Assembly: GCF_029227915.1 (NCBI RefSeq)
Contig: NC_079885.1
Location: 23,871,001 to 23,935,000, forward strand
From: Hydractinia symbiolongicarpus
Lineage: Eukaryota > Cnidaria > Hydrozoa > Anthoathecata > Hydractiniidae
DNA: 64,000 nt
Direction: 5' to 3'
This document shows positions 1 to 48,049 of this stretch, one piece after another. The translations under genes were made by a program, and so were the position numbers. The notes beneath the pieces were generated by a model that saw only the letters and a program-made list of their open reading frames with translations, had not been told where the DNA came from and searched no databases. Each line of letters begins with the position of its first letter. The first letter of the stretch is position 1.

Positions 1-411
1 AAAATTTAAATTCTGAGGTTCCTCATTTCCGCCTCCCGGGCGAGCAGCAGCGTGGCTGCACAACCCCTATTTATTTACTGTATTGCAGTAAATATATAGC
101 ATAGAGCTAACCCTGGATTCTTTTAAATGACGCAAGTGTGACCAGGGCATCAGAAAATAAAAAAAATAAGGACTTTGAACGCTCAGGGAAATTTATAGCG
201 CGAAATTCAAAATGAGTCTAAGAGACTGAAACAACACCAACTTTGATGCCCCAAAACAGCACAAAAATTTTTTTTGCATATTAAAACTGGACTTTTTAAC
301 CATAATTGATCTATTTTCTGAGCAAATCAAAAGAAATCAGGAGCCTAACATTTTTTTTTTCAAAAGATATAAGCGAAATTGAAGAGGAGGGCTAGCTACA
401 GGATATTCAAG
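1..411. other. Non-coding left edge
   Basis: No supported gene. The stretch is AT-rich with several poly-A and poly-T runs. It could hold the promoter and 5' UTR of the RAG1-like gene that follows, but I see no TATA box or terminal repeat I would defend. Confidence 0.5.
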
Positions 412-3202
412 ATGGCTGACCAGACGCACACAAACAAACTAACTAAGTTTTGTCGTATTTGTGCCAAAAAATTAGGGAAAGACAAAATGGACGTACGGAA
501 ATTGAGTGATAGACTTAAGATTGCATTCTATATAGATCCAGTAAATGACGAAACCTGTGTACATCCCACCAAAATGTGCCTAAACTGCTATTCAAAAACG
601 AGAAATATTAAAACTAGAAAATCAACACTCTCAGCAGACTTTAAAGTGGCAGAATGGACCCCACATTCCTCCCTAAACTGTGTTACATGTGATCCCATGA
701 AAAGTGGCAGACACATTAAAAAAACCAATCCAGGTGGTAGGACAAAATTAGAAAACGACAAATGGACACGAGATATTTTGCAAAAAATTCAGGACAATTA
801 CATTGACACTTTTCCACACAATATATACAATGTAAAAAGTTTGGATAATGAAATAAATCCTCATCTTAAATTGTGCATATGCAATATTTGTAATAACATA
901 CAAAAATTTCCTGTATACATTCAAGAATGCCAGCATTCATTTTGCATGAACTGCATCCTGCCCAAGATTGAGGGAAAACTATTGACTAGGACTACGTGTC
1001 CAGTGTGTGGCACTAATTTTTAAAATCTGTAAACGTAGCTGACATGCTAAAGTGTATTGTGATCGCCTGCAAAAATTCATGTGGTTCTACATTTAATGTG
1101 CATGATGAAAAGAGCAGACGAGAACATCTTTGTTTTCAAAAAACACCAACTGCCATCACTGTTAATGACATCTTCAGAATTAATGATGTTGAATCGATTC
1201 CAAGGGAAGTTGAAGATGCGACTCTGCATATTATTAAGAAGAAATTAGCCAGTAGCAGCTCGAAAATTGCAGAATTCAAATCTGGTGGTCCTCGGGTAAG
1301 CAGTTCTAAATTACAATAATTATATTTTCAAAATCATAAAACATTAAACTTGTATATACCTTAATTTTTCAGACAATGTTTTTAAAAATGAATATTTATT
1401 CCAGCATTACATTTTACTTTAGCCAGTTTAAATTACATCAACACCGAAAGCATACAAAGCCAGTAGCATTGCACCACAACGTACCCTCAGAAATAGGAAT
1501 AAACATGTTCAAAATAACATAATGAATATTTCTGGCAGTGATGAAGTATCTGCTGTAAGCCAGACTGCTGTTCTGATAAAGTCATTTGAACAAAAACAGA
1601 GAGTGGAAATTATAAAAAAGTCACAGATCCCACCAGTGGAGATATCTGAAGAAACCATGGTCGCTTTGAAAGCAGATATTGGAATACCATGGGAAAAACT
1701 GAAAACAATGGCTCGGTAATTTCCAGTTTAAACTATTTCTTAAAAACAAATTCATTTTATGATCATCTGCATGTATTACAAACATGTTTTAATCCCTTTA
1801 GTTGATTAAGGACATTCAACATTAAACCAGCTGCAATCAACAAACAACGAGATGTAGCACAATCATGGGCTGGCAATGAATACATTGTTGAGAATACACC
1901 TTTTACAATGGAATCGAATGACCACAAAGGAGTATATGACGTTAGAACAGCACCCTGGTCATATGTAGCAGATCTTAAATCACACATCTTAGATCGTATG
2001 GATAAACTTCATGAGTAAGTAAACTTTTTTATCTTTATTCATAATTGTTGTTGAATGAAATTTTTGAATTAAATAATTATTTCTTATTGTACTTATAGCG
2101 AGATATTAACAACCACGAAAAGAATTACATATAATTCCTATTTTAATTAGGAGCAACTTTGTGATGCATCCTAAAGAATTTCAGAAAGAAATACATTTAA
2201 AGATTGGTGGAGATCATGGTGGTAAATCTTTTAAAATGAGTTACCAAGTTTGTAATGTCGAGAAACCAAACAAGAAAAGAAATACTGTGGTGTTTTCATA
2301 CTTTGAGGCAAAGGATTACCGTGTTAATCTTAAAGTTGGTTTACAAACATTCAAAAGTCAAATTGACCAGCTTCAACTGAGCCACTGGAGGTAAATTTAC
2401 CTTCATGGAAATCAAACCATCATGTAAATATTTTTTTTAGATCATTCAAGTTTGTTTTCTTATTAGGGGAAATCCAATCAGAGTTTTCATGTTTGGTGAC
2501 TATGAATTTTTGTGTGCCGTTTATGGCCTTACTCGAGCAAATGGTAAATTTTATTACTTAATCGAAAGTGTTAGGCATATACCTGAAAACAGATGCAATT
2601 CAAAATGTTAAGTTTTATTTTTAGGACGCCACCGTTGTTTATTTTGTAACATCACTTCAACTGAGATGCAGTTAGCAGATCGTGGAGCTTCAGAGTTTCG
2701 AACTTTAGATACTTTGAAGCGAGACTTTGAAAATTTCAATGAGGATGGTGGCAATATTAAGAAGGCAAAGTTTTTCAACAATGTCATTGGTCAGCCTATG
2801 TTCAATATTCCAATAGATCAGGTATGTTAAAGCTGTTGAAAATTCGATCTAATAAAATATACAAAGGTTATTAACAACCAGGTTGCTCTCCCTGTACTCC
2901 ATATCTCTCTTGGAACTTTTTTGAAATTCTTCAACATGCTAGAAGAAAAGTATAGAATCATTGATTTAAAAATTTCCAAAAAGATTGCTGGTGTCTTCAC
3001 CAGCAAAAACGATATTGAGGAATACAACATGCTGCACCAGAAGGCCAAAGATCTGGAACATTGTATTGTTGATTGCACAGAAAAAATTGAATTGGTGAAT
3101 GATGCTAGTGCAAGATCTGTGATTGACAATCCAGACAATGAAGAATTCATCAAAAAGACATATGAACCAAGACTAGAGTATCTTCAAACCAAATTAGTAA
3201 AG
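412..3202 (+). pseudogene. RAG1-like gene, spliced, damaged, C-terminus missing
   Basis: Encodes a protein with the RAG1 domain order. Exon 1 (ATG 412 to 1295) has CRIC plus HPTKMCLNC, the RAG1-type N-terminal zinc motif, then a C3HC4 RING (CNIC ... CQHSFCMNC ... CPVC, about residues 165-203). A one-base frame break at about 1017-1022 leads into a zinc-finger-like CIVIACKNSC segment and then SGGPR, similar to RAG1's GGRPR nonamer-binding motif. Further exons with GT/AG borders and matching phases are about 1432-1715 (start unclear), 1811-2014, 2151-2390, 2467-2543, 2625-2821 and 2882-3202. They carry GGDHGG (candidate first Asp), FMFGDYE (second Asp), HRCLFCNI (zinc Cys pair) and LPVLHISLGTFLKFF, like the RAG1 LHCDIG region. 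A possible exon 8 is 3312-3360. No counterpart of the final catalytic Glu is found. It could be an N-RAG-type transposon gene rather than a RAG1 orthologue. Confidence 0.72.
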
Positions 3203-4589
3203 GTAAGTTTACACTTACAAAGCTTAGTCTGAATGCTAACCCCTTATTGGAAAAAACTTTTTATAAAAAAAATTAAAAAATAAAATCTAAATGAAAAAAA
3301 ATATTTTGTAGGAAAAGGAAATGCACCATTTTTTGCACCATCTGGGGGTGGTGAAACAACGGTAAATTTTTTTCAGTGGTTACGACAGAGCGCAATTGCT
3401 CTTTCCCACCAGCATGATATTACGGTGCTTCGTTTACCATCTTCCACGCGGTAACAATGAAAGAGTTACGTTGTTTCCTCTTTAGCCAATACAAAATTTG
3501 ACAGAGCGAACTTGCAGAATTCTTTGTCTGACTTAATGTTGTTGCCAATGACTACGTCATGTAAGTCACCAAAAGTGAGACGTCATCTGGGCCGTTTTGA
3601 TGAAATCGATGCTTCGCTTGGTTCCCCCAGATTATTGTTCCTCGCTTTCAGTGTGCGCTTTGTAATTGGAGACGAGCTAAAATCCTTTAAGACATATTTT
3701 TAAGCGTCATTTTACAGAGATTTTGTAACAAAATTGAATCGTAAATTTAATTTTTTCTCACCTGTACACACCGCGTAATTTCAAAGCCAACTGATAGCCA
3801 TCGTCTTTGTGTTTCTCTTTACAAAATGCCTAGTGCAGTACACGTTCAAATTGACACCCTTTGTTGAAAATGACTAAGTAGGTTGACTTTGGTTGAGATT
3901 CACGGTTAGTCAAACTCATTCTTTTGTTTTTTTAGTTCACTTTTACAGCTAGTAAAAAATGTTAATAAACCTTTTGTTTCATCAGAAATATAAAATACTG
4001 ACATTCTGTGGGTGGGCTGAGTTCTTCGGGTAATAAAGACAGCGGGAAGTCATTTCTCTTTTTATTTTCTTAAATGTCGGCATTATTTCAAGCTTTTAGT
4101 TTTTTTAACTTTGAGCATTAAATAAACCGGTGAATTTTATACCAAACTAGGATTAGAATTATATTTTATCACTTGATTTTTACCGTTTTTTCTGTTAAAA
4201 TACATTACCAAAGCTTGTTGACTCCATTTTAAACTTTGAACGTCACTTTCAATTTTGACTTGAAAATGAGATTTTGCCGCCTAAATCGATAACGAGGCTA
4301 CTCAGACATGCAAGATTTGTAGCGTATTAGAAGAAAGACCTCGTGCTGCTTGGAAGCAGGACTTGCAGTTTTTTTAATGGAAATAGCTTTTTTTCCACAT
4401 TTTCTTTTAATTTTAAATCTCAGACAATTCAAGCCTAAATGAAATGGAACTTTCTGGTTGTTCTATGAAAAATACTTTGATTGAGATTTCAACATTGTTC
4501 CAGGGGGAGGAAAAAGGGGACGAAAGGGAAAATTAGATAAAATTCCGTTCAATTTGACCCGGATTGTAGCTAGGCATGCAGTGTGGTCT
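3203..4589. other. Non-coding stretch after RAG1-like gene
   Basis: A possible small exon (3312-3360, AG before, GTAAAT after) may continue the RAG1-like gene. Beyond it I see only AT-rich sequence with short chance frames, including 3512-3703, which resembles nothing I know. I looked here for the missing third catalytic residue and for kelch-like RAG2 coding on either strand and found neither. Confidence 0.45.
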
Positions 4590-5142
4590 TTAGCTTTCGA
4601 TTTGTAGCAAAGCAGGCCTTACCATCGTTGCTTTTAAAGCGATTTCTTTCAATGGGGAGTAGTAGCTATTCCATATATAAATCATTCTATTTAGTTCTTT
4701 GATAAACTTTTTACGAGCTGCACCAGATGACAAGTCTCCAGAATTGCCTATTATAATCGTAACATCTTCCAATGTCAACCTTCCCTACATATGAGCTGGA
4801 GGAGGTCTTGACATTGCAGTTGGGAAAACGTCCGTTGAAGATGGAATCCGATCAATTGATTGATTTGATTTCGCTTTTGAGTCTTTTAAATGTTGAATAC
4901 ACTTGTATTTTCCGCAGGCCTGAGGTACTTTTACAAATGTTTGCACAGTGCAAACATTTATTGATGTTTAAACAAGACGTCGTATCAGAAAATACAGAAA
5001 GATCGTTATATTTTAATCCATTGCCTTGATCCGTTTTTTGTCGTGTATCAAGCAGAACTTCGTTCTCTTTAGCATTTTTTTTCAAAGAAACTATTGGTGC
5101 GGTTGCATCATCAAAAAATAGGTGTTTTATCATTTCATCCAT
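4590..5142 (-). pseudogene. Possible retroelement N-terminal region, broken
   Basis: Two minus-strand open stretches (5142-4852 and 4778-4590) seem to be pieces of one frame-broken coding region. The first holds a C-x2-C pair (CLHCANIC) followed by a basic stretch. The second reads KELNRMIYIWNSYYSPLKEIALKATMV, which resembles a conserved block upstream of reverse transcriptase in some cnidarian non-LTR elements, as far as I recall. No catalytic domain is present. It could equally be a chance pair of open frames. Confidence 0.28.
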
Positions 5143-5189
5143 TTTTCTATTTTTGTAAATAACCAGTAAGAAACCTGTACCCTCTTTAT

Positions 5190-5470
5190 TAAAAGGTCCC
5201 CGAAAAGGAGGGTGCCTTTTTATGCGCTTTCTTTATTGACACAATGTGTAGATCCAGTGCACAATTTTTCAAATCTTTGCTCGTACTTCAAAGCTTTAAC
5301 CTAAAATGTCCCCAATAAGGAGGGTGCCTTTTTATGTGATTATTTTAATAACTTTACGATTTTTTTCAATATACAATTTTAAATCTTTGACCACAATTTG
5401 AATTCTCCAGATACAAAAATATCCAAATCTCTCTTACCTCAAAGGTCCCCGATAAGGAGGGTGCCTTTGT
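5190..5470 (+). repeat. Three spaced copies of a GGTCCCC..AAGGAGGGTGCC motif
   Basis: The motif GGTCCCCGATAAGGAGGGTG, with small variations, starts near 5194, 5309 and 5443, with 115-135 bp of AT-rich sequence between copies. It returns in segment copy 2 at about 26,485, and its tail forms the junction with the truncated DIRS element at 26,356. The regular spacing suggests subterminal repeats of an element, but no boundary is visible. Confidence 0.7.
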
Positions 5471-7059
5471 ATCTGGTTTACTTTAGATAAAAAAAGAAAT
5501 ACATACATAGTCTAAATCTAAAAAAAAAAATAAGCCTTGTGAAAAAAATATTTTTTTAAGAAACATTTGAGGCTTAAATTAACAAAATCTTATCAACATG
5601 AGGCTCAACTAAATACTTGCTTAAGTCACTAATCATTTTTAAGTCGACATCAGACGGAAGTTTTTCGTGAATTTTGTTTTATCGCTTTCACAAGCGTTGT
5701 CTTTAAATGAAAATGACAACTTCTGACGACATGACATGGTGACACTTAGTACAATTAGTGCATAATAATTTTCTGTTAAACGACTTCATATCGATAGAGT
5801 ACACTTTTCCTAATATTTCTTTCTGTACATCATTGACAACAATCTTAGCACTGATATAAATGTCTTCGTTTTCACAAACTGTTCAGTTGTCTTTAAGAAT
5901 CGTCGTGATTTGAACTTATGAACCATTAGCACAGATCCTCCTCTAGCACAGATCCTCCTCCACTTCGTTTGTTAAATCTCCTTAAAACGTAACAGGGATA
6001 GATCCAGTGTTATCATACATCACAGTTTACGATATTTCAAATTTTTATCATTATGAGTAGCACTTTCTATTTCGCACATGCTTGCAACAACTCCTTTCAA
6101 ATGAAGGATTCGTTAAGAATATCACTAATGGATTTAAAGGTATATTCCAGAGTTGTGTTGTCAAACTTTAGTTCAGCTCTGCGTAAAAAGTGAAATCAAA
6201 ATACATCCTCTTGTTCTTCGAGGTTTTGATGGGTGATAGCCCAGTGATGTAACCACTGATAGTAGACGCTTCCAAAGAGAAGGAGAATTTACGTTTAGTG
6301 GCAATGTTTCTATTAATGGATCGATATTTCGAACTAGTGAGATCTCTGTGTGAGATCTCTGTATGTAGAATAAAAGTTTGAATTTAAAACTACACAGATA
6401 TTCCCGTTTATGGCTAAAATCTGTGAAATCGATGTTGGATCGAGTAAATTAAATTCATGGATAAAAGTGGAGTTGATGGTAGTTGTTCTAAAAAGAGATT
6501 TATTTACAAAATTCAGAAATTAAAAATATTCGATTTCAATATTTAAAAAGTAGTCAGTCATTTAGAAAGTTAACAAAACGTATGGTGCAATTATTACTTT
6601 TTGATGACATAACTACTTGTTTCTTTATTTGAATTCCACCGTTTGTTTTTTGAGAGAGTCTAAAGTCAGAATAACTGTTATGTCAAGTATATACAAAAAG
6701 AAAATGCACAAACATGAGGTCAGACTGAATGTTTGAGAGAGAATGTCAGGAAAGTATAGCAACTCAAGGGGGTGCAACAAAATGTAACACAGTATAGCAT
6801 ACAAAATAATGATATAATTTAACGCAGAGATAATATGGCAGCATCATGATCAGAATAATACAATGATATGGCATTATCAAAATGATTGCTCAATACATAT
6901 ACGTGGTCAATGATGCCACCTGATATATGAGTTGGTTTCTGTGCAAATTGAGTGTACCCAAATTGCTGAATTACATCAACTAGATTAGATATGGGAGTTT
7001 GGACTGAATCAAATAGGAGAGTAATTCAGTAAATTCATTCATGGAAGTTCTATGGCTTC

Positions 7060-7627
7060 CGTATACGAGCAGTATTCTATTGTGTCAGAACAATATTCAA
7101 CACAAACAAAAGATACGCAGTGTGACATTATCGTCTATCACAGTAAGAATACTTTTGGTTATTTTTGAAGATTAGCTGATGATACGGAAACAACGTCTCA
7201 GAATTATGTGTATCATAGCTAATAGGTAATTGAGTTTCAGTTAAGCATATTATGTTAGATTGCCTTAAAAGTGAGTGATTTGCCAAATTCCTTTGCATGT
7301 TTCACAAATGATATTTAATAGGTTTATGAAAGGAGGTAAAATCTCATTTTGTGCAACAGTAGCTCTCAATCTATCATATTCTGAGAAAACATTCAAATTA
7401 CATGTGATAGCTTTTGGAGTTACTTCACCAGATATGTAAGGATTTTCAATAATTCGTACCGTACTCAAACCTACATAAATTTGACCATGACTGAACTGTC
7501 GTTGTCTTTGGAGTTCGAAAGATATTACCGCATTAGGAATTGTCAGACCTTGCACTTTCTGAACTGTGCACGCCCAGGCTAACAATAATGGAAACTGCAC
7601 TTTTACTTCGAGGTATACTGGCTTCAA
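7060..7627 (-). pseudogene. Helentron fragment: helicase C-end plus endonuclease start
   Basis: The minus strand encodes the C-terminal part of a PIF1-like helicase of rolling-circle transposons: [17 protein letters not shown], then [17 protein letters not shown], the last helicase motifs. Downstream, degraded frames match the start of an endonuclease domain that is clearer in copy 2 (IICLTETQL, 27.87-28.08 kb). A helicase followed by an endonuclease is characteristic of Helentron-type Helitrons. The Rep nuclease and most of the helicase are absent, and the upstream side ends at about 7630 against an opposite-strand transposase relic. Confidence 0.72.
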
Positions 7628-7639
7628 TCATTTTCGCAA

Positions 7640-8283
7640 AGCGTCAACGAAAAACATTACTCCAACACCCAGGAGGAAGTTCTTCAAGGATATAATTATT
7701 CCCTACATCGAGTCCAAGCGCTTGTCCCATGATATGGCAGCTGATCAACGAGCTTTAGTTATCATGGACGTCCTTACTGGACAGATGACGAGGGACGTCC
7801 TGAATCTGCTCGGTGAAAACAATATTTTCCTCACCAACCTCCCCCCAAACATGACCAAATATTACCAGCCCTTAGACCTTTCTGTAAAAGGATTCGCCAA
7901 ACAGTACATGTCCAATAAGTTAGTGAAGAATTGGATAAAGAAGTTTCGGTTGTCTCTGCTGAAGTCATTACACGCCGAGTGAATCACCAATTTTTACAAC
8001 CACATGACTTCCAATACAGCGAAAAATGTTTTGAAAGCGGCGAAGAATGTTTTGAAAGCGGATGGTTGTCTGCGGGTATAACGGATGCTATTCGTTTAGG
8101 TCTTAGTCAGCTTCCCTCATTCGATCCATTCGATGACTTAGCGCCTATGGTAGAAACGAATCTTGTAGTTGCTGATGATTTCGCTGCAATCTGTAACGTC
8201 TGAAACAAAAACGATTGGCTACTCTCGTGAAGAAGATTCTGACGACGATGACGATTACTGGCAACCAGCAAACGATTTTTAGT
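7640..8283 (+). pseudogene. Tigger/jerky-like DDE transposase, C-terminal relic (copy 1)
   Basis: The coding relic includes ALVIMDVLTGQMTRDVLN and PPNMTKYYQPLDLSVKGF, the second and third acidic blocks of a DDE_1 (pogo/Tigger/jerky) transposase. A frameshift near 7940 leads to a tail with WLSAGITDAIRLG and PSFDPFDDL, ending in an acidic run (EEDSDDDDDYWQP). The N-terminal DNA-binding part and first catalytic block are missing. In copy 2 the same relic is split by the BEL element. It is not the same family as the intact pogo element at 31.8-34.7 kb. Confidence 0.68.
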
Positions 8284-8998
8284 GTTTTCGACGAGTTAGA
8301 CAAGGAAGCATAAACCTTTGTTATATTTCTTGATTATTGACATTATCTTTTGAACTGAAAAGAGCAAGAATTTGTTCCAAGAGTTATTTGTTTTTATTTG
8401 TTACAATAAAAATTATTTTCTCGTTGACAAAGATTATAGCCCTGCTTCTTTATCACCTTTGTTTGGGATTCTAAACCTTCTTTCTCAACGCCATTTCTAT
8501 AAACTCAGCTGATTAAAAAAAAAGCAAAACGTTTTAGAAAATCCCTAAAACTGCAAAACCGCGAAACTTTGATGAACTCAACCTGTTAGGTCTTCAAGGA
8601 ATTAATTAAAGTAAAAATGAAAAGGACACAACACATTTGAAAAGATAAAAAGAACTTTAACCAAGGGCAGGTAGGTTTCGACCCATGTCATCAGCAGAAA
8701 CTAGACATCCCATCTTCCTAAATTAAACTTTAACCACTTTCTGTTCAACTGTGTACTTCTTTGTTTTTAACTCAGGTAATAAGTGGAGTCGTTACTCTCC
8801 AAAGACAAGAACATTTGTGATTAAACCCCCCTGTTGATATTTTTTCTTTTTTTGACTGGGTAATAAGTGGAGTCGTCGCTCTCCAAAGACAAGACCTAGT
8901 ATGATCAAACCCCCTTGCTAACCTAATTTTTATTTGATTTTGTTGTGTAGTCAAGCCCCCTTGTTGACTCATTCTGGTTAAAATATTCTTACCTCAAC
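8284..8998. repeat. Patchwork of dispersed repeats
   Basis: No gene. About 8566-8690 matches 18,595-18,775 (GGACACAACACATTTGAAAA, GGGCAGGTAGGTTTCGACCC). Two tandem copies of a GTGGAGTCGT.ACTCTCCAAAGACAAGA unit followed by a pyrimidine-rich CCCCCTTG block lie at about 8778-8840 and 8866-8925. The same unit recurs near 13,672, 55,256, 62,256 and 63,346. Confidence 0.65.
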
Positions 8999-9545
8999 TC
9001 TTCTAAAAAGAAAACATGCGACTCGTGACTGTTAAGAAGGCGGTCATCACAGAAAATTACTGCTCTATCGTAGCAATGTATCCACCTGTGAACCTTTTAG
9101 TGGAAGGCTATAGTCGTGTATTGACCATTATTTAAGTTGCTGCAATGGTTGATAACAGCCCTTAATTAAAAATTTTTACGAAATTTTACTTCTCCATCTT
9201 TGGTAAAAGGTATGGGAATAATACCAGGGTAAGCAGTAATATGAGAGGCACTTTTTGACACAAGGCCGTTGGCACTCGCAAAACTTTTTAGCTGTAAAAT
9301 GAGATGGGAACCGCACGACACTACCTCTTTTTCAACTAGAGCAGTTTGATGAGCGTTGCAAACATGGCAGAAGTAGGCATTAGTGTCTGACAACTCCTCG
9401 CTTTCAAAGAAATTATCAAGGGAAGATTGTAACGTAGGGTGCAGAGAAATTGGATGCATGGTGCTATAACTTCTGAGGAGCTGGTAATATAACATGAATT
9501 GCAAGTGGTGGATGTCTTGATGCCAATACTAAAAAGACTTCTAAG
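8998..9545 (-). pseudogene. Ubiquitin-specific protease (USP) fragment, copy 1
   Basis: The minus strand encodes the finger and distal part of a USP deubiquitinase: SLDNFFESEELSDTNAYFC, C-x2-C (CHVC), then SCGSHLILQLKSF, the usual LILQLKRF core. A degraded continuation (about 9165-9000) corresponds to the catalytic-His region seen as MGHYTTIAF at 63.5 kb. The catalytic Cys box is not seen. Frames break on both sides. Related fragments occur at 47.6, 58.2, 62.6 and 63.4 kb, which suggests dispersal by a mobile element. Confidence 0.65.
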
Positions 9546-9739
9546 AAATGGAAAGTCTAATGACAGACCAGGTAGAAGATATTCAAGTGATATGATGTGT
9601 CATAGCACGCAAAAAATGAGAGGGATCAACTGGACTTTTAGAAACACCTAAAAATGCTATGCCTAACTTTGAGGTTGTTTTGCTGACAGAAATAAAAATT
9701 CTCACCTCACTTTTCATACCTACTGACACAGAGCATAGG

Positions 9740-10200
9740 GCTAAAAAAGGTAGACCTGGAACCCAGCCCTTAGAAAGGTTGTCACAAAGAATGAAAAGCA
9801 GCAAACCTAAAAACAAAAAGCTTTCTGACCTTGACATGAACACTTGAGAAATCGTATCGTAATGCTTGGGCTGACCAAGAAACCGCCCTTTAAAAAGGTA
9901 GACTTGGAACCCAGCGGCGGCGACCAGAAAACCATTACATATCGTCTCAAACTTAAACAAGTAATTCACTTCACCACCCAGTCAACTTTTATGCTTCGAA
10001 ATCTGCCACGCTCCATTCTTTGGAAGTAATTATTAATCGTCTCGAGATTGCAAGTGAAGACCAATCCTAACCAATGAAGAACACACACTCTTCAGTCACC
10101 AAAAACAAAAAGCCTTAACAATCTATGGTCTTTCCAGTGTCTCCTGGCAGTCATCTGGATCTCTGTTAGAAACAGGAAAAGAGAATAGACGTAACTACAT
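9740..10200 (+). repeat. 470-bp direct repeat, left member
   Basis: Contains TTAGAAAGGTTG..ACAAAGAATG, CTTGGGCTGACCAAGAAA and AACCCAGCGGCGGC in the same order as at 16,650-17,120 and 51,000-51,460. Small open frames here have no known product. It flanks a ~6.5-kb block of unknown genes, as a terminal direct repeat would, but it has no TG..CA ends. Confidence 0.7.
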
Positions 10201-10735
10201 CGCAATGCGGATATAACTTGGAATTGAAAGCACTGATTTGCAAATAATTTGAGAGAGTTCGGGAATAATCGGCCAAGAAACAGGAATTTAATTTGAATTT
10301 CCGCGAGTCGGCACCCTTCTTATACATCCACAACAATTTTACTTTTTCTTTGGAATCACCAAGTCAAATCCACATTAAAAGATCAAATGTTTACGAGATA
10401 AGGAATAAGACAAAAAATTATGCAAATGTGGCGAATTTTTTTTCAATATTTTAGTAGCTAGCTACATTTCTAAAATTTTCACTTTCTTTATGGTGGGAGC
10501 AGTTTTCTTCCTCAATAATAAAAAAGTATGAAAAATATTTTTAATATTGTTCAATTATGGATGGCTATGCTAGATTCCCCAAAACATTCAGCAGTGAAGC
10601 TATGATCTTTCTAAAAGAAAAGATTGGAAAGGAAATTGAAAGCTGATAAAGATTATTCCACCTGTTGAAAGTCATAAAAAACAAGTGTCTGTATGAAATT
10701 TTAGTAGCTCTTTTTTTAAAGGGAACAAGATGTAA

Positions 10736-10963
10736 GCAATTCTATCTGTGATACTGTTCGGACTGGTTGCTGCTTCTTACACTAGCACTATCCCAGATCC
10801 AACGAATGCTGTTCATCATGAAGGTGCTACTGATAAAATATCGTGTTGTTGTTACAAATATAGGTGCGTTCCAGCGAAGGAAGGCGAAAAGAAATTGTTG
10901 CTAATTAATAATATACCAGTGTTACCAAGGAGGAAGGCCGATAAAGGAAAATCGAAAAGATGA
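10736..10963 (+). CDS. Short conserved ORF, possibly secreted, incomplete start
   Basis: The open frame encodes about 75 residues. It begins with a hydrophobic stretch (AILSVILFGLVAAS) that would suit a signal peptide, followed by a Cys-rich patch (CCCYKYRC) and a basic tail (RRKADKGKSKR). The only ATG (10,730) is followed at once by TAA, so a working gene would need an upstream exon or another start. Copy 2 at 51,983 keeps the frame open with a handful of amino-acid changes. I do not recognise the family, and expression is uncertain. Confidence 0.35.
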   Translation, partial: AILSVILFGLVAASYTSTIPDPTNAVHHEGATDKISCCCYKYRCVPAKEGEKKLLLINNIPVLPRRKADKGKSKR

Positions 10964-11171
10964 TTTAACGATTGCGACAAATATTTATTTAAAAATATAC
11001 AAGTGCTTACCAAAAACACTGTGTATATACTTAAGAATCGTGACAAATGAAATTACTTCTTTCCTGGAATCCCTCTATTTTCAATATAGATTTTTTAAAG
11101 GTTTAAAATTATGCAAACTTTTTTATGTTAAGACGGGCGCAAATGCGTCAAATTGTTCATCAAACAGCACC

Positions 11172-12960
11172 TCAAACTGTTTGATGAAATTTTGAATTAT
11201 CGTGATCAGGATGAACACCCAAAACATTCAGTGCTTTCTGGCCAAGCGTTACAAATTCAGATACTGTTTGGTTTGACACCACTGATTTTTTAGCAGTATG
11301 CCAATCACTCAACTTTTTTTGGCATCTATAGCATCCATATGTGCTTGTAGTAGTACATTTACCACATATCTCATTAATACCCAATTTGACCAATGAATTG
11401 TCCGTAAGGTGAATTCACGGAATATGTTATATTAAGTACATTGAAAGACAGCTGTTCTGTTGGGAAGTGATCGCTGCACGAAAATTATCTCCAGTTTGAC
11501 GAAGAAATATTGTAAGTCAATGTCCAAATTCCCATATAACGACTGTCACCTTTTAAATATTTGAAAAGTTCATCTTGTTTTGATGTCTCAATAAACTTCA
11601 TTCGATCAAATAAATCTTTAGATTTAAAGATAAAATTCAAAGTTTCAGCTATACAACACGAGGCACTCGTACACTCATCTAACCCACATTTTTCCTGATT
11701 TTGGTGACAAGACAAAATTTTCCCAACATCTAAATTATTTCACGTACATCACTATAGCTTACTATGTTGACATTATTCTGTATCAAAATTTTTTTGAGTG
11801 TTTTATCAGATCTTTGCAACAAATTGCATTTTCCGACAAGCAATTCAGCACAATCTTTCAATGACACATTCTTTTGTAAATTATTTAAATCTACCCCATT
11901 TATAACATGTTGACACATTGGTTTATTGTCCAGGATTTCCTCTTCCAATAAGTCTGGATGTTTTGATATTAAATAAGCAACATAATCTGAAGAGAAATTA
12001 ATTTTTTAACTACAAAATATCAATGTATAAATCAATCCGTTTTCAACATACTAAAGTTAAACTTGCATACATTAGGAAATGAAATAGGGCACATGGTTCT
12101 TAAATGTGTGGTAAAACAAAAGAACTCACTGCCAGAACAGTGTTTTGTACCAACTGATTTCATTTCCGACAAAAGATTTCGAACAGCTACACTTGAAACA
12201 GGATCCTTGATCCATGTATTGGTGGAAGGACATGTAATTTCATAAATGGAAAACTCTTTTCACATTCTATATAACATACACCATTTTCACATTTAATAAA
12301 TCTAGCAGATTTAAAACCACACGTAATAGGTACTTTCTGTTCATCAGCTCCTACACATGGGAAATGTTGCAAATAATTTTCAAATGATAACACTTTCAAC
12401 CACTGGAAGTTTGTACCAGTGATTGTATGACATTCTATGTCGTCAAAATTATTCTCCTTTTCAATAGAAACTATCTCCTAAGAAGCATCACGTTGTGATT
12501 GTTGCTGTATTATTATGATTATCATCATTGTCAATGTCAACAGAAGAACTTTCGATACAATTGTAAATAGACACCATAAAATTAAGAGCGAGGCCATTTC
12601 TTTTTTGACCGCAATCCTAATTTTTCGAAAAGATTTTTAGCAATAGTTGACAGACAAGCTTCTAACAATGTTTTCATTCTGTTGGTGTTGTCTTTCTTGC
12701 AGGCCAGAATTCACATTTTCCAACTCAGCTATATTGGGTTCCACTTGACCTTTTCTGTATTTTACAATAAATCTTGTAAACTTTTCTACAATTTGTTAAC
12801 AATTTACGGCAACATGTATAACCGTCTCTCAAAGCATATTTCCCACAAAACCACGAATTCACATTTTCCTGCGGCTGCGATCTTTTTCTATGAGACTTTG
12901 ACCAGCAGATCTCTCATCCCCGGCCGGTCCCCAAACGGATCCTTTCACTTTGACAACTTA
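11172..12960 (-). pseudogene. Unknown minus-strand multi-exon gene, decayed (copy 1)
   Basis: Pieces of one coding region appear in order on the minus strand: a Cys-containing block (12,399-12,187: VPITCGFKSARFIKCENGVC), a helical block (11,948-11,730), a CGLDECTSASCC block (11,715-11,485) ending in FLRQTGDNFRAA, and a zinc-like block (11,393-11,172: ICGKCTTTSTYGCYRC). Frames break between blocks. From memory the GDNFRA plus CxC...YGCYxC layout recurs in unclassified repetitive cnidarian proteins, so I suspect a transposon gene. The first exon seen in copy 2 (54,462-54,160) is largely lost here. Confidence 0.4.
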
Positions 12961-13104
12961 TAAGCGCAACGCAACAAGTATGTGATCGATTTCAATGGCA
13001 CTACTGGATTCACTATTTACAATTCTTTAAAAAAAACCTATTGTTTCATTTTTTACGGCTCTGAAACCGATACTTAGACGAGAAACTGCACTAGGTGTCG
13101 TTAG

Positions 13105-13143
13105 GCCGTGAATCCCCACTTGCCCGGTCAGGGGCTTCACGGC
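13105..13143. repeat. GC-rich hairpin (copy 1)
   Basis: GCCGTGAATCCCC pairs with GGGGCTTCACGGC (12 of 13 positions) around a 13-nt loop, in otherwise AT-rich DNA. A weaker version is at 54,648-54,693. It could be a transcript-end or element-end hairpin. Confidence 0.6.
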
Positions 13144-13355
13144 TAGATCGCCGTGTTTTATTTTTACTATTTCTATTTAAACTTTTTATTTATTTAAAAA
13201 CACTTTAATTATATCAACACTCCCACTGAACTACCTGATATACTTAGAAGCTGAGCAAGTTCACCTTAACTAAGGTCCCTGTAAGGGGCATCAGCAGTGA
13301 CTCAGCCTCACTTTCTTTTACTTAAACCTGGGTGTAATATTACCTTCTTATATAT

Positions 13356-13690
13356 TCAGTGGACTTTCACTACCTGATTAAAAAAATCTCTACAGTTAAG
13401 TGAAAATCTTTTAAGTATGTCATGACGACCATACATTTTGTTAAACACTTTATAAACCTTTTCCAACTTGGCACCTTTCTGACACATCCTGGGTGGAATT
13501 ACCGAAGTCAGTTTTCTTGGAAGTAGCTCTGCCGATTCTGAGGATTTCAGCTCCAATTGACGGATAAAACATACTTGATGGTATGTTACTGCTTTTGCTT
13601 AGAATGATGTTTATATCTAAGAATGATGCTTGGTCACCATCGTGCTCCCTTTTTAATTCGAGATTTTTGGGATACGTCGTCACTCTACAA
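13356..13690 (-). pseudogene. Reverse transcriptase C-terminal relic (copy 1)
   Basis: Encodes LELKREHDGDQASFLDINI followed by SNIPSSMFYPSIGAEILRIG and, in another frame, RHDILKRFSLNCRDFFNQVV. These match the region just after the YxDD catalytic box in a class of reverse transcriptases common in cnidarians (Penelope-like or similar, from memory). The catalytic boxes are absent and a frameshift lies near 13,500. Copy 2 (55,266-54,949) has the same pieces in one frame. Confidence 0.5.
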
Positions 13691-14970
13691 AGACAAGACT
13701 AAGTATGATCAAATCCTATTGTCACAATGATTTTCAGCATTATTTTTGGCAAAAAAAACAAAAAGGTGTGAACATGACAAATTTTTGTTACCAGCATATT
13801 TAATATACTTTTTCATTATTAGGCTAAAAAGACAATAGCATTGTCAGGAGTCGTGAGTAGAGCGCAGAATAGCTTTCGGATTGCTTTGTCATTGTTGAAT
13901 GCCATACGCGAAATAACTTTTCTTTATTTACGAAATAAGAAATCAAACACACACTTATTGCAAATGTGCGAACAAAAACTTTGAACTAACAAAAATGTTT
14001 CATTATAGACTATAATTATTTATGAAATCTTAACTATAATAGAACACATCTATTGTTCTATTTCTCTCCGAGATGTACAGAATTCGACAAACGAGATGAT
14101 AGAACATGCCCTGTCCAAGTATTTAATGTGATATTCATAAAACATCCGGCGAACAATCAATCAACCAGGTTTGTGTATAGAGAGGGTTGAAGTTCCAATT
14201 TAACAAATATTACGTAATGTATCCATATAAGGCCATGTTACATCCAAATAGGTAAACGCCTTAATAATAGTAACCTGGCTGCTAGCGCGATCGAAAGTAG
14301 GAGCTTCACGAAGTGCGCTACACACGTTTTATGCTCTCAGAAGATAATTTTTAACTACAAATAATAAAGGATGTAATTTAGAGAAAACCTATTTGTGGAC
14401 AACCTTCTACAAGCATGTACAGTTTGAGAGCGGCATCCATAAGCTACTTGCTTTTGCATAATAGATAAGTTTCAGTGTGACGTTGATGATTTGGTTTTGT
14501 ATCAAAACCAATACGTTCTTCACACATACATAGGGGCTAAAAATGTAAACAACAGACAACCATGCTCAAACATATATACAGTCAAACAAATATAATTATG
14601 CTAAAATTGCTAAAACTTGTACTCAAAAAAACAAAATCAATCCTAGTGTCTATTCGATCTTGTATTTCTGAAAAATGCACTAATTACAGCAATCACAAAA
14701 TTTCTGCAGACTCTCCATAGATCTTAACAATACAAACGTATAATATGTACCAAGAGAGATTGGAGTGTGGGAGTTTTTGTGTGCTTCTGTGCATTTCAAA
14801 TATTTAATGCAAAAAGATTAGGTTTAAGGTTTCATGAATACCGGTCGTTTACAGAAATTTGTTCAACTAAAGAGATATGAGTTTACATTTGTTATTAATA
14901 TTTTTTTATAAAGTAATTTTGCAAATTTTAAGTTAAAGATAAATGTTAAGAAGTTAAGATAAATGTTATA

Positions 14971-15260
14971 ATGCCAAAAGGAAAAGACAGGATTGGACCT
15001 CCAATGGTAGGTTTTCATCAAATTTTTATCTGACATGTTAATTAAATATATAATTTTCTCAGCATATAACCAGAAATAATAAAAATGAAAAGTCTCTAAA
15101 TTATAGGAAAATCGACTATTGCCTCCATGAACGCTGTTATTTAAAACATAATCGTTATTCTAAGGTGTCCAAGCGTGGCCGAAAACAACATGGTTTATCA
15201 AGAAAACAGTATAATCAGCTAAAGTATGTTGCAGGTATACTTAGAGAATATGGCTATTAA
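14971..15260 (+). CDS. Hypothetical two-exon basic small protein
   Basis: ATG at 14,971 gives MPKGKDRIGPPM, then GTAGGT at 15,007. An acceptor (TTTTCTCAG, AG at 15,061-15,062) leads in phase 0 to a 65-codon exon ending TAA at 15,258-15,260. The predicted 77-residue protein is strongly basic, with YCLHERCYLKHNRY and VSKRGRKQHGLSRKQYN. In copy 2 a deletion removes GTCCAAGCGTGGCCG and breaks the frame. No family is recognised. Alternatively this is an internal piece of a lost larger gene. Confidence 0.3.
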
Positions 15261-16085
15261 AGAAAAGGAAATATTTTTGAATTGCATGGAAATAGATTTT
15301 TCCGAAAAAGCCAAAGAAAATGATGTATCAGTGTTGGTTCGCGAGATTTTCGGTGTAACATTTCTAATGCAAAGGGTAAGAAAACGATTATTGTATGAAG
15401 AAAGTGTGGTCTGCTTTAGCCTTCGCATTTTTAATTTTATTTCTCTTTTCGATAAATAAAATGAAAATGGTATTCATTTTTTTGAAAATTTATTATGTCT
15501 CTCTAATAATTTAGTCTTAACAAAGGCAGAAGGCAAGCGATGAAGGAATAGAAAATGATGCAGCTTTTTCTAGAGTATCTATTATTGTTGGTTCTTTAAT
15601 GGGATGTTACTAAGAGTATGATTAGAGCTTGATAAATTAGAAAATATAAATTGGCTGCCTGCTTGCTTGCTTACTCGTATACGAATGGAACCTTGGTTTG
15701 GCGACTTGGCCTTTGGGAGTGGTTATACAAGCCGCAAAAGCTTTTTATTAACAAAAAGTTCTTTCCCAAGAAACATTTTTACACCACCTGTCATATTTCG
15801 ACTTCTCTTAATCGACATCAGGGTCGAGAAAGGAAACACCTATATCCGACTAGGGCTTAAATCGGCTCACAAAAATCCACTAACCATTCCGAAAATTTTA
15901 AATTTAAAAAAAAAGGAGCCCGTATATACTACCTTTAAGGTCCCAACATTATTTTTTTATAATTTCCAACATACCTTAATACAAAATCTTCTAGTTGCAA
16001 GCGTTTTTCAGCCTGAAACGTTAAATACAAATTAGTACATCTAAGTGCCAAGATTGAAATCTTAATATTTTTGTGAACGAATTTT

Positions 16086-16392
16086 ATGGTATTTCAAAGA
16101 AAGACTTCATTGTTTGCTATATTTATCTTTTTAATTTTTTTTGCACTCAAAGAAATACATAGTGGCAGAAACATTCCCAGAAACGCGAAATATATATCTA
16201 AGCGAAAAAATTTTTACTGGAAATCGTCTATTAAGAAATAGGTTAATTAGAGGATTATTCGAAATGCAATTCAAAATAAATTTAGATCCTATGAGACACA
16301 TTGGCATAAGCGATTTTCCATCTTATCCAACTCGACATATACCTTTAAACCGCGTTGTTGCGATATCACCTGCGCCAATCGGGAAAGACTAA
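16086..16392 (+). pseudogene. Secreted small protein, broken (copy 1)
   Basis: ATG at 16,086 begins a sequence with a strong signal peptide (TSLFAIFIFLIFFAL). The frame hits stops near 16,240-16,252 that are absent in copy 2 (57,557-57,862), where the 101-codon ORF is intact. The tail FEMQFKINLDPMRHIGISDF is nearly identical but out of frame here. See the copy 2 entry. Confidence 0.5.
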
Positions 16393-16649
16393 CTTGCATC
16401 GATGTTTCATTGCACCGGTAACCGTAAAGAGAATACTGGCAACTACATCATAATGCAGATACAACTAGCCAGAAATTTTAATGTAAAAAGGAGGTTTCTC
16501 TCCAACGAATAGGAAGCCACTGGAGAACTTCCGTAGTCTCCCCTTTACAGGGATGATCGAAAACCTAATGGATATTGGCTGTACTGAAACAAACACCTAT
16601 GAATATGGAAACATGAAGATTGGTGAAATTCACCCAGGCCCTGAGTAAG

Positions 16650-17120
16650 TATCCCCTGCCTTCTGCAAGACCCTTAGAAAGGTTGTGACAAAGAATGAAA
16701 AGCAGCAACCCTGGAAACAGAAAATCTTTCTGACCTTAGACATAAACAGTGGAGAGAGAAATGGTATCGAAATGCTTGGGCTGACCAAGAAATCACGTCT
16801 TAGAAAGGTAGACTTGAAACCCAGCGGCGGCAACCCAGAAAACTATTACATATCGTCTGGAACTTAAACAAGTAATTCCCCCAGTCAACTTTTGTGCTTC
16901 GAAATATGCCACACTGCATTCTTTGGAAAGAGTTATCAATTGTCTGAGATTGCAATTGAAGACCCTTTCTAACCAATGAAAAACACACACTCTTTAGAGA
17001 CCAAAAACAAAAAGCCCTGGCGATATATGGTCTTTCCCACCGTCACCAGTCTTTCCTAGCAGTCAACTGGATAAGTGTAAGAAACAGGAAAAGAGAATAG
17101 GCGTTACTACATCGCAATGC
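16650..17120 (+). repeat. 470-bp direct repeat, right member
   Basis: Same sequence order as 9740-10,200 with more differences (AACCCAGCGGCGGCAACCCA, AAGTAATTCCCCCAGTC). The right break of the segmental duplication lies inside it near 16,715. A short piece (about 16,420-16,460) is also repeated nearby. Confidence 0.65.
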
Positions 17121-20541: not shown

Positions 20542-22161
20542 TTAACGTATAAGTCTGGGCTTAAGATTACATAGAGCAGCACATGCCTTGACAATGTCAT
20601 CAGCATGCTGCATCATAGTAATAGGTAAAACAGTTTTCAAGATGCGGTAGAACTTCACACGATTAATAGCACGCTCCACATGTATTCGTAGATTGGCAAT
20701 TTCTTTAGTGTTCTTGCACTCAGTTGATGTCATCTGACTTTTAATTCTAGCACCAGGTGGAACACTCAAGCTACAAAATTTTAGCAGTAGTTCTTCTCTT
20801 ATTTGAAACCCTCTATCAGCCATTACTTCGTCGTCCCGTTCTAACAATTCATAAAACCCACTATTCTTTGTTATATATCGATCGCTGGCCCGACCACCAT
20901 AACAGTCAAATAAAAATGTTATGAAACCTGCAGGTGATATACCAATTAAGAATTTTATTGTGTTGTGGTGCTTGTAATCGGACCATGTAGCTGCTTGGTT
21001 TAGTAAAGATTTTGGTCTTGCAATAAACACCTCAGTACAGTCAATAATTACTCTGCATTTCGAGTGTCCAGTTTTAATAAAGGCATCAGGTAAATTGTCT
21101 CTAATCGCTTCTCTTGGTAGCCATACAACAAGAGCGTTGCCCAGAACTTTGCTTAAAATCTGTATCCATGTCGTGAAAGTGTTGGAACAAATAGTGGGTG
21201 AAATTCCGAAGCGGTCAGCAAGGTCTTCATTTAGTAAACCTAAACGCTACCTCATCAAAGTTAGCAAAAATTCGTCACGATGTGTAAGGATTTTGCTTGC
21301 TGGAGTAGAATAAGTACGTTTGACTTTGCTGTAGCTATTTGCACGTTTAGGGCCTCTCCAGTATCTGATCTTAGATAAGTATGGGTTCAAAAGTTGAAAA
21401 ACTGATTCAAACATGCCAATAGATACTATGCCAGTGTAAAAATTTATTTTTTGGTCTGTCTTTATTTTTCGCCATGTAAAAACACTTTTTTTAGTATTGA
21501 AGACTTTCACTCTGTTGGCAGTTTCAACTTGTAATGTTAACATATTTATTTTTCATGCAAGAGAATCAATAACATTTTTCTTGTAGCTACATCCCTCCCA
21601 TTGCTGAGTTAATGATGATGAAAAATAGGAATGTTCCGATACTGGTGAAAAGAATGATGATGATTGACATGGTAATTCATTATTACCATTATCATCAACA
21701 TTAACATTATCATTAACAACATTATCAACATTATCATTAACAACTGCTTCGTCAACTTCTTCATTTAACTATTTTTTTTTCTTACAGTTAGGTACAACAC
21801 CTGAACGAAATAATTCTCTTCTTGGTCGTTTTTGTAAGAGTTCGTAACCCATGTTCAAAGTTGGATCTGGATTGGCGGCAGTGGGCACCCCATCAGCAAA
21901 ATGAAACGAACACACTCTGTCACTTCCAGCAGGAGTCCTTTTTGATTTATTATGTCCTTCTCGCTTAATAAGTTTAATCCAATTCTGCCTTTGCTCGTTG
22001 TTGTTCTTACTGCTCGGAAAACAATATAAATAAAATGGTCGTTCGCATCCACATAATTCCTTGATAACATTGTTGTGTATATCACACAATTCTTTCTTCG
22101 ACTTTCCAATTTTATACTGGCTATTCGTACAACCATTAACAGCACAATTTACGCTGGGCAT
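20542..22161 (-). pseudogene. THAP domain + DDE_4-type transposase, frame-broken
   Basis: Starts at 22,161 with a THAP zinc finger: CAVNGC, later CERPFYLYCFPSS, and VCSFHF (C2CH pattern, residues 6-80). A middle block (21,543-21,247) holds a helix-turn-helix region (YWRGPKRANSYSKVKR). A frameshift at about 21,247 leads into the catalytic part: VIIDCTEVFIARP (first Asp), DDEVMADRGFQI (second Asp) and RIHVERAINRVKFYRIL (Glu), ending at 20,542. All three acidic residues are present, but stops between the THAP and middle blocks (21,770-21,545) and the frameshift argue against a working gene unless an intron explains the first gap. Confidence 0.75.
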
Positions 22162-26355: not shown

Positions 26356-27580
26356 GGTGGAGGGTGCCTTTTTATGTGATTATTTTAATAACTTTACGAT
26401 TTTTTTCAATATACAATTTTAAATCCTTGACCACAATTTGAATTCTCCAGATACAAAAATATCCAAATCTCTCTTACCTCAAAGGTCCCCGATAAGGAGG
26501 GTGCCTATGTATCTGCTTTACTTTAGAAATCTTGTTATCTTCGTCTTTTCATCAAACTTGTATTTTAAAAACCGTTTAATAATCAACCTAAGAAAATCTG
26601 AAACAGGTTTTATGCAAAATATATGTATAAATATACATATTAGGCACCTGATAAAAAAAGAAATACATACATAGTCTAAATCTAAAAAAATAAGCCTTGT
26701 GAATAAAATATTTTTTTAAGAAACATTTGAGGCTTAAATTAACAAAATCTTATCAACACGAGGCTCAACTAAATACTTGCTTAAGTCACTAATTATTTTT
26801 AAGTCGACATCAGACAGACACTAATTATTTTTAAGTCGACATCAAACGGAAGTTTTTCGTGAATTTTGTTTTATCGCTTTCACAAGTTTCAATATTTTCG
26901 AGGAAGGCACATTGTAAAACTTTTCAATGATTTTCTATTTCGCACATGCTTGCAACAACTCCTTTCAAATGAAGGATTCGTTAAGAATATCACTAATGGA
27001 TTTAAAGGTATATTCCAGACTTGTTTTGTCAAACCTTAGTTCAGCTCTGCGTGAAAAGTGAAATCAAAATACTTTCTCTTGTTCTTCGAGGTTTTGATGG
27101 GTGATAGCCCAGTGATGTAACCACTGACAGTAGACGTTTCCAAAGAGAATGAGAATTTACGTTTAGGGGCAATGTTTCTATTAATGGATCGATATTTCGA
27201 ACTAGTGAGATCTCTGTATGTAGAATAAAAGTTTGAATTTAAAACTACACAGATATTCCCGTTTATGGCTAAAATCTGTAAAATCGATGTTGGATCGAGT
27301 AGAGATTTATTTACAAATTCAGAAATTAAAAATATTCGATTTCAATATTTAAAAAGTAGTCAGTCATTTAGAAAGTTAACAAAACGTATGGTGCAATATA
27401 TTACTTTTTGATGACATAACTACTTGTTTCTTTATTTGAATTCCACCGTTTGTTTTTTGAGAGAGTCTAAAGTCAGAATGTCAAGTATAAACAAAAAAAA
27501 ATGCACAAACATGAGGTCAGACTGAATGTTTGAGAGAGAATGTCAGGAAAGTATAGCAACTCAAGCGGGTGCCACAAAAT

Positions 27581-27611
27581 GTATGCTATACTGTGTTACA
27601 GTATAGCATAC
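27581..27611. repeat. Perfect 13-bp inverted repeat, copy 2 only
   Basis: GTATGCTATACTG, five bases (TGTTA), then CAGTATAGCATAC. Copy 1 (about 6780-6805) has only the right arm, so the left arm was gained in copy 2 or lost in copy 1. Confidence 0.75.
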
Positions 27612-27859
27612 AAAATAATTATATAATTTAACGCAGAGATAATATGGCAGCATCATGATCAGAATAATACAATGATACAACATTGGAAATGGCATTATCA
27701 AAATGATTGCTCAATACATATACGTGGTCAATGATGCCACCTGATTGTACCCAAATTGCTGAATTACATCAACTAGATTAGAGATGAATTTACCTATTTG
27801 AATCAAATATTCATGGAAGTTCTATGGCTTCCTTATACGAGTAGTATTGCTATTGCGTC

Positions 27860-28389
27860 AGAACAATATTCAACACAAACAAAAGATACGCAGTGTGACA
27901 TTATTGTCTATCACAGTAAGAATACTTTTGTACTTATCTTGGTTATTTTTGAAGATTAGCTGATGATACGAAAACAACGTCTCAGGATCATGTGTATCAT
28001 AGCTAATAGGTAATTGAGTTTCAGTTAAGCATATTATGTTAGATTGCCTTAAAAGTGAGTGATTTGCCAAATTTCTTTGCATGTTTCACAAATGATCTGA
28101 TATTTAATAGGTTTATGAAAGGAGGTAAAATCTGATTTTGTGCAACAGTAGCTCTCAATCTATCATATTCTGAGAAAACATTCAAATTACATGTGATAGC
28201 TTTTGGAGTTACTTCACCAGATATGTAAAGATTTTCAATAATTCGTACCGTACTTAAACCTACATAAATTTGACCATGACTGAACTGTCGTTGTCTTTGG
28301 AGTTCAAAAGATATTACCGCATTAGGAATTGTCAGACCTTGCACTTTCTGAACTGTGCACGCCCAGGCTAACAATAATGGAAACTGCAC
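27860..28389 (-). pseudogene. Helentron fragment, copy 2
   Basis: Helicase C-terminal motifs ([17 protein letters not shown] and [12 protein letters not shown]) run from 28,389 to about 28,130. The linker [19 protein letters not shown] follows and, after a stop and frameshift, [19 protein letters not shown] (about 28,045-27,980), the opening of an endonuclease domain. Better preserved than copy 1 over the helicase-endonuclease junction. Rep and the rest of the endonuclease are missing. Confidence 0.72.
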
Positions 28390-28399
28390 TTTTACTTAG

Positions 28400-28820
28400 A
28401 GTTATACTGGCTTCAATCATTTTCGCAAAGCGTCAACGAAAAACATTACTCCAACACCTAGGAGGAAGTTCTTCAAGGATATAATTATTCCTTACGCCGA
28501 GGCCAAGCGCTTGTCCCATGATATGGCAGCTGATCAACGAGCTTTAGTTATCATGGACGTCTTTACTGGACAGATGACGAGGGACGTCCTGAATCTGCTT
28601 GGTAAAAACAATATTTTCCTCACCAACCTCTCCCCAAACATGACCAAATATTACCAGCCCTTAGACCTTTCTGTAAATGGATTCGCCAAACAAAACATGT
28701 CCAATAAGTTAGTGAAGAATTGGATAAAGAAGTTCCGATTGACGAAATCGAAATTAAGTTTCGGTTGTCTCTGCTGAAGCCATTACACGCCGAGTGAATC
28801 ACCAACTTTTACAACGACAT
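28400..28820 (+). pseudogene. Tigger/jerky-like transposase relic, copy 2, part before BEL
   Basis: Same as copy 1 from the FFKDIIIP region through MDVFTGQMTRDVLNLLGKNN and QPLDLSVNGF. The last five bases, GACAT (28,816-28,820), are the left target duplication of the BEL element. The relic resumes at 47,144. Confidence 0.72.
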
Positions 28821-39400: not shown

Positions 39401-40002
39401 TCTGTTTACTTGATGTTTCAACATGGCCAACTACTGTCACTCCTACTTTCGGGGAAGATCGCATTGATGAAATTCTTTTGGATTTCGAAAAGCTGTTGGA
39501 AAACAACGGATGTAACGTAGGCGAAGTAAAAAAAGAATGGATCTCTTTACAATCTCACATCATCCCTATTGTGATTAATAATCCTCGAGAGTACTACTTG
39601 AAAGTATGGAAGAGGGTTTTCACAAACGAACACATTCGTAAGGATTGTGAAAACATCCTTCACATCATTGAAATATTGCTTTGTACCCCATTCACGAATG
39701 CCAAAGTGGAGCGAGGCTTCTCCAGGATGGCGAGGGTGAAAAGTGATTTTCGAAGCCATCTCAGCAGGGACATGCTCGACGCTTGTTTGCGAATAAATGA
39801 GGATGGTCCAGATATTTGTAATTTTGACCCTGATCCAGTCATTGATCAATGGTATACGGAAAAAGTGCGACGACTTGGATCATCGTCGCACAAGTATCCT
39901 AAAAAGAGAAAATCTACAACTACAACAAGCGATAGAGTGCAGGTTGATGACTTAGCCTCACTTGCACTCTCTGATATCGACTCTGATGAAGATGAAGCAT
40001 GA
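36496..40002 (+). CDS. hAT transposase, three exons, apparently intact
   Basis: Exon 1 is 36,496-36,590 (MMASLKTVRNWEREFKSKFD), exon 2 is 36,666-37,375 and exon 3 is 38,624-40,002; GT/AG borders and phases agree. Exon 2 opens with a BED-like zinc finger (CQVCQRW ... HTNSQQH), then the first catalytic region (LNDGSTDTGICEQELVYV) and FNADGASVNMG. Exon 3 has CFNHRIELAIKDAF and TRWIDHKFKAM, and the C-terminal dimerisation block CTPFTNAKVERGFSRMARVK plus SRDMLDACLRI. It ends in a basic then acidic tail (KKRKSTTTTSD ... DIDSDEDEA). About 728 residues. It resembles the ZNF862/KIAA1586-like branch of hAT proteins. Open frames suggest recent activity. Confidence 0.88.
37600..37996 (-). pseudogene. LINE 3' fragment inside the hAT intron
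   Basis: On the minus strand 37,996-37,745 reads LGVREAMMVLRTRLEMWDIG, then RRCKGCKATEETTEHVLECE, the C-x2-C-x8-H-x4-C knuckle that closes many LINE reverse transcriptases, and stops at 37,745. No RT core is present. The neighbouring 38,000-38,300 is low-complexity CAATC/CAACC-rich DNA. It lies antisense to the hAT gene and wholly within intron 2. Confidence 0.5.
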
Positions 40003-43344: not shown

Positions 43345-43404
43345 TTTTGTTGCACATAGCCTAAGGCTACAAATAATTTCTAGTAATTAAATTTTAATTC
43401 TAAA

Positions 43405-47385: not shown

Positions 47386-47439
47386 GCCCCCTTGCTGACT
47401 CATTCTGGTTAAAATATTCTTATCTCAGCTCTTCTAAAA

Positions 47440-47900: not shown

Positions 47901-48049
47901 TGAATTGCAAGTGGGGGATGTCTTGATGCCAATACCAAAAAGACTTCCAAGAAATGGAAAGTCTAATGACAGACCAGGTAGGAGATATTCAAGAGATATG
48001 ATGTTTCATAGCACGCAAAAAATGAGAGGGATCAACTGGACTTCTAGAA

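Follow-up and report, generated by a model that had tools for sequence, protein, structure and literature searches.

RAG1 is the enzyme that cuts antibody genes, and the source of its N-terminal RING is an old question on the origin of antibody gene recombination. The passages cited here describe several systems that bear on it. Chapaev transposons are characterized by CAC/GTG ends, 3- to 4-bp target-site duplications (TSDs) and C(2)C, LH and H(4)H motifs (PMC4079192). The Pfam domain DUF1280 has been equated with the Chapaev transposase and placed in one clade with RAG1 (PMC3985635, 2014), it has been counted in Hydra and other cnidarians (PMC7642931), and Chapaev, Transib and RAG1 have been grouped on shared motifs (PMC12730594). 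Kapitonov and Koonin (2015, PMC4411706) argued that the RAG1-type zinc region, called Chapa, and the RING were fused to the core already in the common ancestor; the same paper gives E3 ligase activity for the RING of RAG1. RAG1L proteins with a ring domain are described from molluscs and amphioxus, along with cnidarian RAGL pairs (PMC7204232), and complete RAGL elements from corals (PMC9435367). Because of this literature, the Chapaev kind, its architecture and its kinship with RAG1 are already in print. Here, we describe a transposase gene at one end of a 64-kb stretch of the Hydractinia symbiolongicarpus genome (C11:23871001-23935000 in a 481-Mb, 76-contig assembly; hereafter the window), together with its relatives elsewhere in that genome.

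The window gene is almost certainly what remains of a RING-bearing Chapaev DNA transposon, inactivated and truncated on its 3' side. The Chapaev transposase domain (Pfam DUF1280, PF06918) matches its core with an E-value of 1.3e-11 for exon 5 alone and 4.1e-14 for the joined core. In exon 1, the Pfam entries RAG1_imp_bd (E 2.4e-9) and zf-C3HC4, a C3HC4 RING (9e-7), are found. Chapa followed by RING, ahead of the core, is the order in the window copy, its sister copy and a second family alike, as in the RING-bearing kind of Chapaev. A third zinc finger in exon 1 was recognized by eye and has no Pfam match. The C(2)C and LH motifs can be read in the window as CLFC and LH; the H(4)H motif appears as HLLEDH in the last exon of the sister copy, an exon that is missing from the window. 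All 22 related proteins that we collected match the window by tblastn, with 98 matches at E<=1e-3, every one of them inside 403-3226; the reversed window, used as a control, gave 0 matches from the same 22 proteins.

The nearest of the other copies lies at C7:27287885-27292892 and is 97.6% identical to the window copy over the ungapped columns of the shared stretch. This sister element is 5008 bp long, has CACG...CGTG ends and is flanked on both sides by TTTA, a 4-bp TSD. When joined, its exons corresponding to 412-3202 give 748 codons free of stops; GT is present at seven of seven donors and AG at six of six acceptors. It then runs on with further exons, taken as stop-free tblastn matches and not joined into the spliced model, of which the last reads ITPKLHLLEDH...YGEQGGEGIHAEFN; about 0.6 kb remain after the last exon of its one gene. 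The left end, CACGTTAG, is common to the window copy, its C7 sister and one further copy, L013. In the window copy this terminus falls at C11:23870950, 51 bases upstream of window base 1. L013 is damaged, with stops and frame changes in the matched exons, and no right end could be located for it. More widely, exon 8 as a query found at least 50 matches in its own genome at E<=0.001, and in some cases two of these matches belong to a single copy.

A second family is made up of six loci (L014 to L019), on C3, C4, C5, C8 (twice) and C9, whose exon 8 is 43% identical to that of the window at the amino-acid level. A complete element of about 5.3 kb is present at L014 and at four more of the six loci, and these four have identities of 98.99-99.98% to the L014 copy. 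In each of the five, the ends are CACGC...GCGTG and the duplication is 4 bp long (tttc, acgc, gagg, catg and cagc). At L018 there is a left end only; an exact-match search did not find the right one, and this locus has no scored duplication. Exon 1 of L014 matches the zinc region at 7.9e-10 and the RING at 2.7e-8, and its last exon is YGEQGAESIHAEFN. Since the copies are nearly identical and their duplications intact, transposition was recent, and this is a recently mobile family with Chapa, RING and DDE core. Scored over nine copies, the TSD is 4 bp in all six that could be scored (the sister copy and these five).

An initial annotation of this stretch, made from its letters, had named a series of motifs (CRIC...HPTKMCLNC, a C3HC4 RING, CIVIACKNSC, SGGPR, GGDHGG, FMFGDYE, HRCLFCNI and LPVLHISLG), and all of these are present. 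It had also proposed that a RAG1-like N-terminal region with RING and a RAG-like DDE core belong to one transcription unit of an invertebrate transposon, which the stop-free joining of exons in the sister copy bears out. Fuller copies with ends and target duplications, which it had suggested looking for in the same genome, are there as the C7 copy and the five complete elements. The label of a RAG1-like or N-RAG-type gene has to be given up, as the core is a Chapaev transposase (DUF1280) and the sister copy has a 4-bp TSD and CACG/CGTG ends. A profile search of the core, which it had advised, matched Chapaev through DUF1280 and left the RAG1 profile unmatched at E<=10.

The 22 related proteins come from two database searches (10 and 14, including two repeats), the latter of which scored only the 7995 candidates sharing most words. 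In a Pfam scan of 17 of them, DUF1280 was found in all 17, the RING at E<0.01 in 7, RAG1_imp_bd at E<0.001 in 8 and both N-terminal domains in 4; the RAG1_imp_bd matches of P0009 and P0017 lie under the curated cut-off. P0011 (970 aa) unites every part, including the GEQGGE block, while P0006, P0007 and P0009 have the Chapa region and an alignment gap at the position of the RING. Residue 1 of the Hydra protein P0017 falls on the Met at 412 in the alignment. In a tree of 18 of the 22 relatives (the short P0016, P0019, P0020 and P0022 were left out), the window core joins six Hydra proteins with support of 94/91, slightly short of the level that the tool marks with a star. The predicted core fold of one relative, P0002, has RAG1 as its best match in the PDB (15-17% identity in the best structural alignments), so this relative is modeled with a transposase core fold of the RAG1 type.

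Several points weigh against the assignment of the window gene to Chapaev, or against its likeness to RAG1. The right end of the window copy is lost, so its own TSD cannot be seen, and three of the nine copies (the window copy, L013 and L018) have no scorable TSD. The spliced gene model is one predicted from genomic sequence. The tree spans the window core and 18 of its relatives, so that the choice between Chapaev and RAG1 lies outside its reach. The P0002 model, which is of a relative and not of the window copy, has a mean predicted local distance difference test score (pLDDT) of 69.3 and is poor over residues 1-340. The sequence profile reaches RAG1 in the PDB significantly only at the N-terminal region (E 5.1e-9); its piece around the catalytic Glu alone scores an independent E-value of 32 against the RAG1 core, which is not significant, and the core alone has no match among PDB sequences at E<=10.

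A rival reading is that the gene is a RAG1-like member of the RAGL/ProtoRAG transposon lineage, direct kin of vertebrate RAG1. The domain order is the same, and RAG1 is the top PDB match both for the N-terminal part of the profile and for the core fold of the relative. We nevertheless consider such membership very improbable: the core matches DUF1280 and not the Pfam RAG1 model at E<=10, the TSD is 4 bp and not 5 bp in every scorable copy, the sister copy included, and in the 5.0-kb sister element no more than about 0.6 kb follows the last exon of its single gene. RAG1L/RAGL membership was accordingly rejected on family profile and TSD length. Transib was rejected as well, on the N-terminal Chapa-RING region and the same 4-bp duplications.

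The window copy is itself a fossil, because it has a frame break with a stop and two in-frame stops (Table 1) and has lost its 3' part. It diverges from both the C7 copy and L013 beyond 3323, once 12 bases of the next exon have been read; as homology to the sister copy ends there, the exons bearing the catalytic Glu and the right end must have been lost. The window copy thus has the two catalytic Asp residues, and the Glu is found only in the sister copy (GEQGGEG). No Glu region was found elsewhere in the 64-kb window, where protein matches starting outside 300-3300 were scattered and all had E 0.11 or worse. A self-comparison of the window gave no second copy of the element at E<=1e-3, and among the 25 longest of the 116 pairs from a search of 1-12000 for terminal inverted repeats, none resembled element ends. 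The truncation before the last catalytic Glu and the presence of at least one frame break had both been anticipated in the initial annotation. Its exon layout stands as regards splicing, which the sister copy supports, but exons 3 and 4 begin at 1423 and 1802, and these corrected starts expose the two additional in-frame stops. Its extent of 412..3202 falls short at the 3' side, where the gene continues to 3323.

Table 1. Parts and lesions of the Chapaev gene copy, in window positions; exon 3 is that of the initial annotation
Feature	Position	Strand	Basis
5' leader of element	1..411	+	Sequence common to window copy and two other genomic copies from CACGTTAG onward
Exon 1, first part: start Met, Chapa (RAG1-type zinc) region, RING	412..1020	+	Pfam RAG1_imp_bd, zf-C3HC4; Hydra P0017
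Lesion: frame break and TAA stop	1020..1023	+	Sister copy continuous at same place
Exon 1, second part, another frame: third zinc finger, then SGGPR; donor gtaag at 1296	1024..1295	+	
Exon 3	1423..1715	+	tblastn alignments of several relatives begin at 1423; open in sister copy
Lesion: in-frame TAA, exon 3	1429-1431	+	Relatives have sense codons opposite stop; exon open in sister copy
Exon 4	1802..2014	+	Alignment with relatives, sister copy
Lesion: in-frame TGA, exon 4	1803-1805	+	Trp at that place in 7 of 10 relatives aligned
Exon 5: GGDHGG, first catalytic Asp (codon 2212-2214), DUF1280	2151..2390	+	Pfam DUF1280
Exon 6: FMFGDYE, second catalytic Asp (codon 2498-2500)	2467..2543	+	
Exon 7: CLFC zinc pair (2636-2647)	2625..2821	+	
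Exon 8: LPVLHISLG block (LHISLG 2897-2914) and helical insert	2882..3202	+	Genome-wide matches
Next exon, first 12 bases only	3312..3323	+	Next exon of relatives begins at corresponding base of sister copy

Such a copy makes no working enzyme, and its remaining left end could at most be recognized by enzymes from other copies. Exon 1 is open through the RING for 203 codons, which would suit a domesticated host gene whose truncated protein, for example the RING part, serves a cellular role. Three disabling changes and the 3' loss, in transposon-dense surroundings and in a multi-copy gene family, make domestication highly unlikely. That the element is of the N-RAG-TP type, with a RAG1 N-terminal-like part only, would account for the Chapa and RING region, but the chance of this is close to nil and it was rejected, since exons 4-8 are the DDE core of the same spliced gene, the mapped exons of the sister copy join stop-free and proteins such as P0011 carry both parts.

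An intact protein of the Chapaev family described here would probably transpose DNA by cut and paste, in the manner of RAG1 or Transib. Its DDE core of the RAG1 type would cut at the CACG/CGTG ends, which the SGGPR region may help to bind. The Chapa/RING region would dimerize, and perhaps ubiquitylate partners or the protein itself through a possible E3 ligase activity.

We tentatively propose, as something a little less probable than its contrary, that the whole RAG1 plan, with its Chapa zinc region, its RING and finger, its GG(R)PR motif for binding ends and its DDE core of RAG1 fold, arose before Chapaev, Transib and RAGL diverged and is still present in a recently mobile cnidarian family. 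If this is true, the RING is an original part of the transposase that was lost in Transib, not a late addition to RAG1. A full plan shared by Chapaev and RAG1 was previously proposed in print. What the genome adds is a set of very young, complete elements that follow this plan and whose ends and target duplications are defined; in addition, a relative has a core predicted to be close to RAG1. In PMC4411706, PMC3985635 and PMC12730594 no Chapaev structure model compared with RAG1 was seen, and one may still exist in print. The shared origin of core and RING could be put to the test in a family that moved recently. Taken alone, the window copy is an ordinary transposon fossil, and the interest lies in the fold match and in the family of young, complete elements with a RING.

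The rest of the window is rich in other repeats. A large repeated segment occupies 8040-16717 and 47162-58187 (main pieces 89.6-97.3% identical), and two open reading frames on the minus strand, 9169-9528 and 58103-58471, share a CHVC...LILQLK motif that looks ubiquitin-hydrolase-like by eye; the first has no Pfam match at 1e-3. Another segment is repeated at 5319-8005 and 26359-28820 (84-98% identical in pieces). It holds a DDE_1 open reading frame at 7563-7979 (plus strand), overlapped by an antisense frame at 7268-7627 (minus strand) that reads by eye like the tail of a Pif1/Helitron helicase and has no Pfam match. Further transposons are packed at 20545-21246, 32130-33416, 38623-39999, 40616-41320, 43387-46467 and 48323-50920, with Pfam matches to DDE_Tnp_4, DDE_1, the hAT dimerisation region and Integrase_H2C2. 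Two long open reading frames there resemble long interspersed nuclear elements (LINEs), and one protein from Hydractinia shares 86% identity with the first across half its length. The short motif ggtccccgaaaaggagggtgcctt and its variants occur in three copies within 300 bases at 5190-5490 and again near 26480.

Set beside known systems, the element differs from vertebrate RAG1 and from the RAG1L of ProtoRAG/RAGL in its 15-17% identity in the best structural alignments of the predicted relative, its 4-bp TSD and the unmatched Pfam RAG1 model; no RAG2-like gene is known in it, and no search aimed at RAG2 was made. Transib (HzTransib, 6pqx) is described as being without the N-terminal region and as having 5-bp TSDs (PMC4411706, PMC8355894). 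The N-RAG-TP of Aplysia likewise has a RAG1-like N-terminal region but is described as composed entirely of it (PMC8355894). Five Hydra DUF1280 proteins that were aligned are 43-50% identical to the window read-through. The start Met of Hydra vulgaris LOC105850260 (P0017) is the same as that of the window gene, and LOC124815234 (P0001) has the RING, SGGPR and a GEQGGES block; these proteins differ in having open reading frames and in belonging to another genus, and several of the database models are without one end. The Chapaev elements with Chapa and RING, of which two subgroups are described (Kapitonov and Koonin, 2015, PMC4411706), are likened to our element by that published description. 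The window copy differs from them in being truncated and having stops; it has the same Chapa, RING and DUF1280 DDE core, and the sister copy and the second family likewise have their CAC...GTG ends and 4-bp TSDs.
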